Origin: Methanoculleus formosensis
GTDB lineage: Archaea; Halobacteriota; Methanomicrobia; Methanomicrobiales; Methanoculleaceae
Direction: 5' to 3'
DNA: 64,000 bases
Assembly: GCF_025384765.1 (NCBI RefSeq)
Contig: NZ_VHLL01000001.1
Coordinates: 248,001 to 312,000 of the forward strand
Shown here: positions 32,349-37,427 of the stretch, one piece after another
How the letters are laid out: each line of letters begins with the position of its first letter
Position numbering within the stretch: position 1 is the first letter of the stretch
Position numbers and translations under genes: made by a program
Notes under the pieces: model-generated
What the model was told of the DNA's origin: nothing
Seen by the model: the letters and a program-made list of their open reading frames with translations, nothing else
The model's database searches: none

Positions 32349-33380
32349 TCACCCCTCCCGGAACGCCTTCCAGAGATACGCGAGCCCGAAGCATCCCGAG
32401 AGCATCATGTCCCCGAAGGGCGCCGCCTGGTAGGCTTCCGGGAGCAGCCGGAGCCGGTTCGGGCCGGTGACGACGACGGCACCGGTCTTGAGTGGTCTTC
32501 GGATCGCCGCCCCGTGGCCGTTGTCGTCGAAGACCTCCTCTGAGGTCAGGGTGCCGTCGGCGAGCCGCCGGATGTAGTCGTGCAGTTTCGCGGGGTCGAG
32601 CGCGCCGGTGTGGTGCTCGAAGAGGCCGTGGATCTCCCGCCCTTTCAGGGTGAAGCAGAGGGTGTGTCCGTTTCCGGCGTTGACGAGGGTCACCCCGTCC
32701 TTTGCCATCTGCCGCACCCGCGGGTCACAGAGCGTCCCGATGAGGGCGACGGGGCCGGTGTCGGTGACGAGCGCGTCCGGTGCCTGGCTCCGGACGGCCT
32801 GCATCCGGGTCATGTCGGCGAGCGGCGGGTCGGTAACAAGCGAGAGGAGGTCCCAGTCCCCGGCGTCCAGCCGCTCCCGCATCAGTTCGAACCGGTGGAT
32901 GCGGTTGCTCCGGTGCGGCGAGTAGCCGTGATCCTGGACTGCGACCGCGACGTTCCCGGGGTAGTCCACCCCGAAGAGGGAGAGAGCCTGCCTGAGTTCC
33001 TGCTCCATGTAGTCGGTGGTGCGGACCCTCACCGCGTCCCCCGGAGGGTCGGCGCGGATCTCGACGCCAAGCGCCCGCACCCGTTCCGGGTCGTCGTGGA
33101 GGGTGAGAGCGGCCTCCTCTGTGGCGTAGACGGGAAGGCCTGCTGCCAGATGTTCGCGTATTGCGCCGGTGTTCGCGCCGCCGCCCATCAGGTGCCCGTC
33201 CAGGAAGACCGGGAGCCCGGCGCGGGTGGCCTGCCGGATCTTCTCCGCCGTCACCACGGTCGGGGAGGGGAGGACCAGTTTGATGCTGTTCTCGATCGAT
33301 TGGCCGGGCTCGTAGACCAGGATGTCCTGGGTGCCCCGGCCGACATCGATGGCGAGGAGTGATGTTTTCAGGTCGATCAT
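32349..33380 (-). CDS. DUF1786-family protein (actin-like ATPase fold suspected)
   Basis: 343 residues. The opening LLAIDVGRGTQDILVYE resembles the phosphate-1 loop of the ASKHA (actin/Hsp70/sugar kinase) fold, and a later ALIGTLCDPR / LVNAGNGHTLCF pair could be further nucleotide contacts. The Pfam domain has carried the label putative pyruvate formate-lyase activating enzyme, but no CxxxCxxC radical SAM motif is present, so that label is not supported. It lies downstream of nrdD in the same direction, separated by a T-run. Confidence 0.7.
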   Translation of the reverse strand: MIDLKTSLLAIDVGRGTQDILVYEPGQSIENSIKLVLPSPTVVTAEKIRQATRAGLPVFLDGHLMGGGANTGAIREHLAAGLPVYATEEAALTLHDDPERVRALGVEIRADPPGDAVRVRTTDYMEQELRQALSLFGVDYPGNVAVAVQDHGYSPHRSNRIHRFELMRERLDAGDWDLLSLVTDPPLADMTRMQAVRSQAPDALVTDTGPVALIGTLCDPRVRQMAKDGVTLVNAGNGHTLCFTLKGREIHGLFEHHTGALDPAKLHDYIRRLADGTLTSEEVFDDNGHGAAIRRPLKTGAVVVTGPNRLRLLPEAYQAAPFGDMMLSGCFGLAYLWKAFREG

Positions 33381-33468: not shown

Positions 33469-36400
33469 TCAGGCATCCGCCCGGTCCGCCGCCGGGGAGG
33501 TGCCGGCACCGGTTGCCCGGTCCTGGCGCGCCGGTTTCAGTTCCCGGTACTCCTTGAGAGAGACCGTCAGGTCGCGGGTGAAGGCGAAGTAGCCGATCTG
33601 GGTCGTCCGGCAGAGGTTCATCGCCATTTCCATCAGCCCCCGGGGGTCGGGGCGCGCCTCCCCGAGCCAGATGTGGAAGATGTTGCCGCCGTCCACGACC
33701 GGGAAGAAGACGTGCTCGATCTCGATCCTCTTTGTGAGCGGGACGGGGGCCGCCGGGGTGACGTGGGTGCCGTTCGTGTAGTAGATGGGGAGGTCGAGCG
33801 TCGTGCCGAGCATATCGAGCCCCTTATCAGCGTCGCCCTTGATGACCTTGATCGCGTGGTCGCGGAACCGCTCGTCGAGGAGGTCGGCGACCGCGAAGCG
33901 CTGACCGGTCGTCTCCGCCGGGGTGCGGGCGAGAGCGATCGTCATGTTGTGCTTCTTCGAGAGTTCGCGCGCATACATCTCGAGCTCAGTCATCGCCCGG
34001 ACGGCGAGACGGAACGCCTCCTTCGACTCGTGGAGCTGGTGGCCGGTGAAGTGCTGCACCATCTCATTGACCCCGACGACGCCGATGGTGTAGACGAGCC
34101 CTTCGAGGTCCACGGCAACCGCGCCGCGTTCGCCGGTGTTCGGGTCCTTCGGGCGCTGCATCGCAAACGGCATCCTCCCGTTCGTCCGGATGAGGGACAT
34201 CCAGCGGCGCTTGATACGGTAGAGGTCGACGGCGATGTCCATGAGCGATTTCAGTTCGGAAAAGAGCCGTTCCTGGTCGCCCTCCGCCTTGTACGCCGCC
34301 CGCGGGCAGTTGATCGACATCACCTGCCAGGATCCCATCGAGAAGTGCTTCCCCTCGCGGAAGTAGAGCTTGTCCTCGAACTCGTCGTCCTCGTCGGCGA
34401 GGGAGGAAAATTGGTACGCGCAACATTGATAGCAGGAGATTCCTTCTCCGGCCCCGCGGTAGGCGGGGATCTGGTTGTCATAGTAGGGGCTGCCGTACTT
34501 GGACGCGAGCTCGAACGTCATCAGGTAGAGGTCCTGGTAGGTGGGGAGATCGGGGTGAGCGCGGTTGAACTCTTCGTCCTCGGTGAGGAAGTCGGGCTCG
34601 ATGCTGATCTCGGGTTTCGGGAAGGAGAAGGGTTTGCCCCAGTAGTCGCCCTCGAGCATCACCTCCATCAGCGCCTTGAAGAGGAGCCGGACCTCGCGCT
34701 CGAACTCGCCGTAAGTCCGGAGCGGCGCCTGCTCCCCGTTCCAGACCTTCCCGCGGTAGACGCAGGGCTTGTCCTTCCAGAGGGTCGGAACGCCCGGGGA
34801 GAGCTGGACCGACGAGAAGACCACCTGGCCGCCCCGGGCGACCATCATCTGGGTCATCTCGTAGACGAACATCTGCATCAGCTGCCGGATCTCCTCGTAG
34901 TCCATCCCCTCGAAGAAGGGCGCCATGAACGTCAGGAAGTTGTAGTAGCCCTGGCCGCCGGCGAAGTTCGTCTGGGCGGAGCCGAGCGCCTTGACCGCGT
35001 GGAGGACCGCCACCTCTGCCCGCTTTGCGGGGCCGGCGACCGAGGCCTTCGTCCCGTTCCCATCAGGCATCAGGCCGTAGTAGAAGAAGTATCGGAGGTC
35101 CCAATCCTGGCAGTTGTGGATGAGAAGGCCGTCGGAGGCGTAGAACGTGTGGCTCTCCTCGCTTCCGTCGCCGTCGAGGAAGAGGTCGTAGACGTACTCG
35201 CCGGTGGGCTCCGCGGGCCCGTTATCGACGACGGTCTCTTCCCGTTCGGCGGTCCGTGTTCCCTTCACCGCGGAGAGGAACCCGTCAATGTGGCCCTGCC
35301 GCGAATCAAGGAACGTGGCGTACCGGGCGAACGTCTCGATGTTCTTCCTGCCGTTGAGCTGGAGCCGGTAGAGCGTCCGCCGCTCCTCCTCGCCGTAGAG
35401 TTCGACGATATGCGGCGACATCCCGAGTGAGGTAAGCAGGAGCGAGAGCTCCTGCCGGAGCGCCGGTGATGCGGTGGTGTAGTTGACGATGCAGTCCGAT
35501 TTCTCCGGGCGGTAGTATGCCGAACCGTCCCCGGTGAAGAGGGCGGAGAGGAACTCGTGGAGGAGCACGTCGTCCAGGTGGTAGACGATCCAGGGGAGGC
35601 GTTTCCCTGCTGCGCCCTCGGGGATGGCAAAGACGTAGCGGAAGAGCAGATAGGCTGCCTTGCCGCCGAAGTAGACCTGCAGCGCCCGGTTTCGCTCCAC
35701 CTCAACCCCATAGATGGTCGTGGTATCGGGAGCGCCGCCGGCGATCGTTGCAAAGGTGTTCAGGCAAGCACGCGCCGAGGCCGCGATCGCGGGCGCCTGG
35801 TGGTTCTCGGTTATCGCGAGGTTGTACTGTCCGACCGCCGGTGCGGCGTTATAGTTCCCCTCCGAAACGAAGAATCCAAGGAGCCGGACGAGTTCCGGCG
35901 TAAGGGTGAGAAGGGCTGGCAGTTCGTGTTCGCTCCCCGTGACCCCGATGGTGACCCCGGCATAGTCCTCGATGCCGTAGCGGCGAGAGAGGGCCGCAAA
36001 GAGTGCGACCGGCATGATCCCGCGCATATACCACTGTTTCTGGTGTTCGACGCCGAGTTCCCGCGAGATCTCGGCGTAGGATGCGGCCCGCCCGCTCTGC
36101 ACCACATGGCTAAAGATCCCTTCGGCACCGCGGACGTAGACGTTATCGAGGAACTCGGCCGGAACCGATGCAGATAGTTCCCGGACGAGATCGATCGATC
36201 CGATCGTCTCCCCGCGGAGACCGTCGGTCCCGGATATCCGGTAGAGGGCGTCCCCGGGCCTGACCTCGTCGGCACGACGGACGGCCATCCCTTCATCGGT
36301 CCGCACCGGGATCCGGTGCTCGCCGGTGACCAGGAGCGATCCCCCATCCGATGTCCGGATCCGGCGCATCTCGCCCGGGTTCACCTTCCGGCGGGTCACC

Positions 36401-37092
36401 TTGGCGACGCGCCTCCAGCCTCCCGGGGTGAGTGCAGAGAGATCCTCCGGGAGCCACGCATCGCCGTTAATTGGGAGTTCGTCAAGGCGAAGGCTCTGGA
36501 TCCGGTTCTCCATCCGCAGGGGCACAACCGTGCTCCCGTCGATACAGAACGGACGGGTCCCGAAGTATTCCAGGTCGTGAATATGGAGATCACCGCGGAG
36601 GTGATGGTCGGCAAGTTCCGGGGGGAGTTGCAGGAGGTACTGCTCCTTGCTGATCTTGTCCGCCTTCTTCTTGTGCGAAGTCTCGGCGTTCTCCTGGAGG
36701 TTCGCGTTGTCGTGCGCCTCGAACCCACGCCCCACATCGATGAGGTGCGCGTCAAAGACCGGGGTTCCCACCCGGGTGGAGACGTTGCGGTAGGGGATGA
36801 GGCCGCGCTCGAGGAGCGTCGTGTTGACGATCTCGCGGATCAGGGGGCCGGAGAGCGACTGAAGGCCCAGCATCTGGATCTTCTTCTCGACCCGCCGGGC
36901 GATATCCTGCGCCGTCTCTTCGTCGGCTCCCTCGTAGCCGTAGAAGGTCTCCACGAGCCGGGTCTCCTCCAGGATCTGCTTGACGATCCGGTTCCGGTCC
37001 CAGTCAAGGAGGAAGCCGCGGGAGGTTCTGACCTTCGGGAACGTCGGAACGAACTCCCCGAATAGAGTCGCCTGTGTCGACTTGCGGGTCAA
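33469..37092 (-). CDS. nrdD: Anaerobic (class III) ribonucleoside-triphosphate reductase, intein-containing precursor
   Basis: A 1207-residue precursor; removing the intein (residues 183-660) leaves 729 residues, a normal NrdD length. An ATP-cone regulatory domain (about 15-100) precedes the catalytic barrel. The enzyme makes dNTPs using a glycyl radical. The start is a TTG with GGAGG seven bases upstream, only two bases after the nrdH stop; the longer frame upstream is a shadow of nrdH. The C-terminus is odd: it ends with TQIGYFAFTRDLTVS and a polar tail, with no CxxC pairs and no RVxGY loop. No NrdG activase gene is in the window. Confidence 0.9.
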   Translation of the reverse strand: MTRKSTQATLFGEFVPTFPKVRTSRGFLLDWDRNRIVKQILEETRLVETFYGYEGADEETAQDIARRVEKKIQMLGLQSLSGPLIREIVNTTLLERGLIPYRNVSTRVGTPVFDAHLIDVGRGFEAHDNANLQENAETSHKKKADKISKEQYLLQLPPELADHHLRGDLHIHDLEYFGTRPFCIDGSTVVPLRMENRIQSLRLDELPINGDAWLPEDLSALTPGGWRRVAKVTRRKVNPGEMRRIRTSDGGSLLVTGEHRIPVRTDEGMAVRRADEVRPGDALYRISGTDGLRGETIGSIDLVRELSASVPAEFLDNVYVRGAEGIFSHVVQSGRAASYAEISRELGVEHQKQWYMRGIMPVALFAALSRRYGIEDYAGVTIGVTGSEHELPALLTLTPELVRLLGFFVSEGNYNAAPAVGQYNLAITENHQAPAIAASARACLNTFATIAGGAPDTTTIYGVEVERNRALQVYFGGKAAYLLFRYVFAIPEGAAGKRLPWIVYHLDDVLLHEFLSALFTGDGSAYYRPEKSDCIVNYTTASPALRQELSLLLTSLGMSPHIVELYGEEERRTLYRLQLNGRKNIETFARYATFLDSRQGHIDGFLSAVKGTRTAEREETVVDNGPAEPTGEYVYDLFLDGDGSEESHTFYASDGLLIHNCQDWDLRYFFYYGLMPDGNGTKASVAGPAKRAEVAVLHAVKALGSAQTNFAGGQGYYNFLTFMAPFFEGMDYEEIRQLMQMFVYEMTQMMVARGGQVVFSSVQLSPGVPTLWKDKPCVYRGKVWNGEQAPLRTYGEFEREVRLLFKALMEVMLEGDYWGKPFSFPKPEISIEPDFLTEDEEFNRAHPDLPTYQDLYLMTFELASKYGSPYYDNQIPAYRGAGEGISCYQCCAYQFSSLADEDDEFEDKLYFREGKHFSMGSWQVMSINCPRAAYKAEGDQERLFSELKSLMDIAVDLYRIKRRWMSLIRTNGRMPFAMQRPKDPNTGERGAVAVDLEGLVYTIGVVGVNEMVQHFTGHQLHESKEAFRLAVRAMTELEMYARELSKKHNMTIALARTPAETTGQRFAVADLLDERFRDHAIKVIKGDADKGLDMLGTTLDLPIYYTNGTHVTPAAPVPLTKRIEIEHVFFPVVDGGNIFHIWLGEARPDPRGLMEMAMNLCRTTQIGYFAFTRDLTVSLKEYRELKPARQDRATGAGTSPAADRADA
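35113..36546 (-). other. Intein in NrdD (478 residues, LAGLIDADG endonuclease)
   Basis: The splice borders are clear: the N-terminal Cys1 (CIDGSTVVPL) follows TRPF, and the C-terminal IHN precedes Cys+1 of the host (CQDWDLRY), so exteins rejoin as TRPF-CQDWD. Block B is VTGEHRIPV (TxxH). Two LAGLIDADG helices are present, LLGFFVSEGNY and FLSALFTGDGSAYY, with an acidic residue in each (Glu, Asp), so the homing endonuclease may still be active. Block F/G is VYDLFLDGDG...SHTFYASDGLLIHN. All splicing residues needed are present. Confidence 0.95.
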
Positions 37093-37094
37093 CC

Positions 37095-37427
37095 TTATGC
37101 CTCCGCGATCAGATCGGCGACGAGGTGTTCCTGGAACTCGCCGCCGCTGAAGAGATCGGCAGACGTATAGAATTCGTCGCCTTTTTGCAGAACCGGCGCT
37201 TCCTGGGCAAATACACCGTTTATGCGGAGTTCGGTCAGCGCCTCGGCGGACGCCATGTCGCATTCGGTGAAGGGGACACCCCTTGAGGCCAGGAATTCTT
37301 TGAGTATCTCGCAATTCGGGCAGAATTCCAGTGTGTATATGGTGAATTGCGTTGTATCGGAAATGCTAAAACCCCCAGATTTTTCGGTCACTATGTTTTC
37401 GTTTTGCACGGTTATAACAGATCTCAT
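37095..37427 (-). CDS. nrdH: NrdH/glutaredoxin-like protein
   Basis: 110 residues of thioredoxin fold: strand FTIYTLEFCPNCEILKEFL with the redox pair Cys36-Pro-Asn-Cys39, and a cis-Pro loop EAPVLQKGDEFY. In methanogens an NrdH-type glutaredoxin next to nrdD is the reductant of the class III reductase. The stop lies two bases before the nrdD TTG. The first 25 residues precede the fold and may be overcalled, but no better start with a ribosome site is obvious. Confidence 0.82.
   Translation of the reverse strand: MRSVITVQNENIVTEKSGGFSISDTTQFTIYTLEFCPNCEILKEFLASRGVPFTECDMASAEALTELRINGVFAQEAPVLQKGDEFYTSADLFSGGEFQEHLVADLIAEA

Follow-up and report, generated by a model that had tools for sequence, protein, structure and literature searches.

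An intein at a catalytic cysteine of the class III ribonucleotide reductase NrdD of Methanoculleus formosensis

We have analysed a stretch of 64,000 nucleotides from Methanoculleus formosensis (in the following, the window), and we confirm that the insert in its nrdD gene is real and is a complete class 1 LAGLIDADG intein. The original prediction, which had placed such an intein at the catalytic site of a normal reductase, is partly supported: the intein and its position at the catalytic site stand, but a complete normal NrdD after splicing does not. We are nearly certain that the insert is bifunctional, that is, that the precursor splices itself and that the intein (here called nrdD-a) homes into intein-free nrdD genes; in this, we infer the splicing chemistry, the cleavage of DNA and the present activity of the copy in the window.

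The nrdD precursor and its intein

On the minus strand of the window, a frame of 1207 amino acids is open from a TTG at 37092 to the stop at 33469. The following features were assigned (positions in the window):

33469..37092, minus strand: nrdD precursor with in-frame intein, TTG start, 1207 aa (ORF; TIGR02487, E = 4e-138)
36547..37092, minus strand: N-extein, residues 1-182, with the C-terminal end ...HIHDLEYFGTRPF (ORF, comparison with relatives)
35113..36546, minus strand: nrdD-a intein, 478 aa (splice motifs, Pfam/NCBIfam, model, relatives)
36544..36546, minus strand: Cys1, block A nucleophile (invariant in an alignment of 29 homologues; at least 95% conserved in 53)
36316..36327, minus strand: block B TxxH, here TGEH, intein residues 74-77 (T and H in 53 of 53 full-length homologues)
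35242..36237, minus strand: endonuclease and DNA-recognition region, approximately residues 104-435 (absent from the 154-aa mini-intein of G131; model)
35857..35871, minus strand: first LAGLIDADG motif FVSEG (226-230), catalytic acid E229 (acid in 50 of 53 full-length homologues)
35524..35538, minus strand: second LAGLIDADG motif FTGDG (337-341), catalytic acid D340 (acid in 50 of 53 full-length homologues)
35113..35118, minus strand: block G, His477-Asn478 (HN in 53 of 53 full-length homologues)
35110..35112, minus strand: +1 Cys (Cys183 of the extein), corresponding to T4 Cys79 and to Cys125 of T. maritima (alignments)
33469..35112, minus strand: C-extein, 547 aa and stop, without a glycyl-radical motif at its end
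34423..34425, minus strand: extein Cys412, empty in the window; +1 residue of a second (site b) intein in many relatives
37095..37427, minus strand: nrdH, glutaredoxin-like, upstream neighbour of nrdD (PF00462, E = 2.7e-5; position)

Residues 183-660 of the precursor form an insert of 478 amino acids (1434 bases, 36546..35113), and the coordinates predicted for this in-frame insert, 35113-36546, were exact. When the insert is taken out, 729 amino acids remain, with the junction ...HIHDLEYFGTRPF/CQDWDLRY... (GTRPF/CQDWDLRY; here and below, a slash marks the insertion point). The nrdH gene ends 2 bases ahead of the start codon of nrdD, an arrangement that one would expect of class III enzymes which depend on a redoxin, and the two genes probably belong to the same operon. 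The next gene downstream, in the same orientation as nrdD, is a DUF1786 gene (32349..33380, minus strand); Pfam describes DUF1786 as a putative pyruvate formate-lyase activating enzyme.

We see the sequence and fold properties of a class 1 intein, namely Cys1, TxxH, HN/C, a predicted HINT fold and exteins that are contiguous in intein-free homologues. Furthermore, there are two LAGLIDADG helices, each of which ends in a catalytic acid; both acidic residues that had been pointed out earlier (in FVSEG and FTGDG) are intact, as E229 and D340. A chance resemblance is excluded because Pfam LAGLIDADG_3 matches intein residues 331-408 with E = 2.6e-13, because the NCBIfam profile of the C-terminal intein region (TIGR01443) is matched above its cut-off, and because there are 28 homologous intein loci in named genomes and occurrences in 50 of the 232 genomes of the order (Methanomicrobiales). 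The profile of the N-terminal splicing region (TIGR01445) scores under its cut-off, which counts against an intein.

The AlphaFold model of the intein (mean pLDDT 87.6, pTM 0.89) contains the HINT fold, for which Foldseek finds matches to whole inteins and mini-inteins, and its helices 217-229 and 326-340 end at E229 and D340. The best fold matches in the PDB are intein endonucleases, that is, PI-PkoII (2cw7, E = 4e-24), TliVMA (7qss/7qsu) and PI-PfuI (1dq3); a sequence search of the PDB likewise ranks 2cw7 first (E = 0.0012). Like the nrdD-a intein, PI-PkoII and PI-PfuI combine a HINT splicing domain with an embedded two-motif LAGLIDADG endonuclease, but they occupy other hosts and sites and are only 12-16% identical to it. 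The host of PI-PfuI is presumably a ribonucleotide reductase of another class, and we take RNR-1 and RNR-2 of Methanocaldococcus jannaschii (InBase) to be inteins of an archaeal anaerobic ribonucleotide reductase. Among the NCBIfam profiles, the best match is the intein of the tetraether lipid synthase Tes (NF045703, residues 43-478, E = 3e-31), which differs in its host protein.

Splicing would start with an N-S acyl shift performed by Cys1, after which the thioester would be handed to the +1 Cys and Asn478 would cyclise, with His477 assisting. The exteins would be ligated as ...TRPF-CQDWD..., and the +1 nucleophile would become the catalytic Cys183 of NrdD. The two-motif LAGLIDADG endonuclease, for its part, would cleave intein-free nrdD at the conserved codons of the active site, and the repair of the cut allele would copy the intein in (homing).

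Distribution, homing and decay of the endonuclease

The presence of the nrdD-a intein in the order is patchy, and on the tree of the exteins (69 sampled rows) it amounts to 17 changes. Methanothrix also has an nrdD-a intein, with 54-57% identity. The identities of inteins and exteins are correlated (r = 0.86) and the intein clades mostly track the host families; therefore, most of the spread is old or has taken place within families, rather than by recent long-range transfer. A recent transfer between orders was considered and rejected, since the Methanothrix inteins form a clade of their own and intein identity tracks extein identity.

Two genomes of the same genus as the window, G071 and G055, have intein-a DNA that is 98.3% identical (dS 0.031), as against 87.9% for the exteins (dS 0.527) and 57% for the inteins at the second site. 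In 90-bp windows that flank the intein the identity is 83-94%, without a comparable rise. This signature indicates recent homing with little co-conversion. Mobility, as expected of a homing endonuclease, is thus seen indirectly, in relatives, from the transfer between G071 and G055 and from the patchy presence; nothing shows a recent movement of the copy in the window. Scanning viral contigs with the archaeal or the phage intein gave no relative and a search of plasmids gave none, and in the phage records we found nothing beyond two distant NrdD inteins (in an Aeromonas and a Fusobacterium phage).

We compared the intein of the window with those of eight Methanoculleus relatives and obtained dN/dS values of 0.13-0.22 for the endonuclease part and of 0.16-0.29 for the splicing part; for the extein, the same eight comparisons give 0.04-0.08. 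The endonuclease part is under purifying selection, with a constraint no weaker than that on the splicing part, and the endonuclease is probably functional. Among the relatives, a loss of the catalytic acids or of the entire domain recurs (G055, G067, G090, G091 and G131). For example, G055 reads FTAGG, with one acid gone, where G071 retains FTGDG; in the 449-aa inteins of G090 and G091 both acids are missing; and G131 (L136) contains a mini-intein of 154 aa at site a, from which the endonuclease is deleted. These decayed and mini forms complete a homing cycle.

Such losses, together with a spread that mostly tracks host families, could also mean that the intein of the window still splices while its endonuclease is already inactive and is kept solely by inheritance. 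We regard this as possible but rather doubtful, given that both acids are intact, that dN/dS in the endonuclease part is low as stated above, and that a recent transfer is seen in the same genus. We prefer the bifunctional intein, with splicing and homing.

The insertion site at an active-site cysteine

The cysteine conserved for the reductive half-reaction is Cys79 in T4, Cys175 in E. coli and Cys125 in T. maritima (PMC4493059). With phmmer, the residue after F182 pairs with T. maritima Cys125, and in the extein profile alignment Cys183 pairs with T4 Cys79; the score in that stretch is weak in both cases, but the two alignments support one another, and the conserved HxHD motif that precedes this stretch fits both. 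The +1 Cys therefore aligns with the catalytic position, as had been claimed. It had also been placed 13 residues after HIHDLEYF, which is right if one counts from the first H, whereas from the end of the motif the distance is only 6. A four-sequence alignment with phage NrdD displaces the phage site-a Cys by a few columns (a gap), so that we base the assignment of site a on the phmmer and profile alignments and on the numbering of PMC4493059.

The two phage inteins occupy this very point. In the NrdD of Aeromonas phage vB_AceP_PAc, an intein of 457 aa lies in LTN/CSLVN (L168 3001-4371), which is the N78-C79 position of T4, and the NrdD of Fusobacterium phage phiKSUM has an intein at PQPN/CLLAD, the same insertion point (L239 2501-3892). 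The Aeromonas phage intein spans the entire archaeal intein profile (E = 1.4e-30) at about 22% identity. Both phage inteins are diverged and, unlike the nrdD-a intein, have bacterial viruses as hosts. The NrdD of the Fusobacterium phage is annotated as several separate ORFs.

Many relatives carry an intein at a second site (site b, 423-476 aa) between SCYQ and CCAYQF, at loci L127, L129, L138-L155, L161, L162 and L167. It is only distantly similar to the nrdD-a intein and ends in VTGN or LTGN, that is, Gly replaces the penultimate His. In G052, G079 and G094, site b is occupied and site a is not. Cys412 lies in the finger-loop region, where the candidates for the thiyl-radical Cys are residues 409, 412 and 413; the PDB profile alignments end before the finger-loop Cys, and the four-sequence alignment with phage NrdD is ambiguous for Cys409/412/413.

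Conditional splicing is known in other inteins, and one could ask whether the nrdD-a intein is a redox- or condition-dependent switch, with splicing delayed and the active-site Cys freed only in anaerobic, reduced cells. Indeed, the enzyme is sensitive to oxygen and its catalytic Cys serves as the +1 nucleophile, and the second intein at Cys412 in many relatives points in the same direction. However, most alleles in the order are empty, we saw no conserved regulatory feature, and the requirement of homing for a conserved target fully accounts for the placement in the active site. The genome also encodes a class II ribonucleotide reductase (G000:C2:327748-329124), so NrdD is maybe not its sole source of dNTPs. 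A switch is thus very improbable in our view.

The search for intein-less alleles in close relatives, which the original prediction had proposed, was successful. In G056, G070 and G051 (same genus, protein 94-95% identical), and also in G081 and others, TRPF and CQDWD are adjacent, as the original prediction demanded, and there is no insert; for two of these same-genus empty alleles the DNA identity is 90-92%. In a second genus, the extein DNA of the occupied G095 and the empty G088 is 96.2% identical. G051 (L137) also contains an exact duplication of 2967 bp, with a second nrdD copy about 15.7 kb off that is intein-free and N-terminally truncated. The notion that the insert is a lineage-specific domain of NrdD and not an intein has its in-frame position in its favour and nothing further, and it is refuted by the empty alleles, in which 94-95% identical relatives lack the insert exactly at the junction, as well as contradicted by the intein signatures and the fold, so that we give it practically no chance.

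The host enzyme and its glycyl-radical domain

The host of the intein has the NRDD barrel core and the Cys of the reductive half-reaction, as judged from Pfam/NCBIfam profiles and from alignments (numbering as in PMC4493059). The expectation of a normal 729-residue reductase was not borne out, since the chain stops short of the zinc/glycyl-radical domain of NrdD: after splicing it ends behind GYFAFTRDLTV, without the glycyl-radical motif. The motif is missing in all Methanomicrobiales NrdD frames that we inspected. The NrdD of Methanothrix runs on into the zinc site and ISRITGYLQAVSGWN.

We used the Methanothrix enzyme as a query against 394 genomes of the phylum. Among the full-length matches listed, those from outside the order extend to residue 758-762 (of 762); inside the order the matches stop at about 707-708, and a few go on to 729-732. 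A separate ORF of about 120 aa (G000:C8:56913-57272; L169; L002) contains zinc-ribbon cysteines and ISRVTGYLQDVAGWN, and it aligns only with positions 503-562 of Pfam NRDD. Within the order, 201 of 232 genomes have such an ORF (including some weak matches in one genus) and 199 have the truncated nrdD. In the genome of the window the two genes lie on different contigs; in G048, G051 and G055, whose genomes consist of one contig each, a long distance separates nrdD from the small ORF.

Judging from the sequences, the glycyl-radical domain appears to be a separate, unlinked gene across the Methanomicrobiales, and to be fused in the other orders sampled. We consider it fairly likely that the class III ribonucleotide reductase which hosts the intein is split, so that the radical domain is provided in trans by the unlinked zinc-ribbon protein of about 120 aa and the catalytic chain is often interrupted by one or two inteins (+1 Cys183 and Cys412). 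A radical-SAM activase, as expected of a class III reductase, is present in the genome as NrdG2 (TIGR02495 above its cut-off, G000:C3:116791-117318). In the papers that we consulted, which did not include the central study of the M. barkeri enzyme, we found no description of the split.

With its placement in the active site, the insertion site that it has in common with phage NrdD and its homing footprint, the intein is a fine illustration of its kind and hardly unexpected; more unusual is the split glycyl-radical domain. Archaeal and bacteriophage NrdD have both been invaded at the same catalytic cysteine. Furthermore, one catalytic codon offers a natural series of empty, occupied, recently transferred, endonuclease-dead and mini alleles, which suits tests of the homing cycle in methanogens. 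Should the split be confirmed, it would give the enzyme a form with two chains, whereas PMC4390871 describes the storage radical as a glycine of the catalytic enzyme. With the storage radical on its own chain, the assembly of the subunits and the transfer of the radical could each be tested separately.
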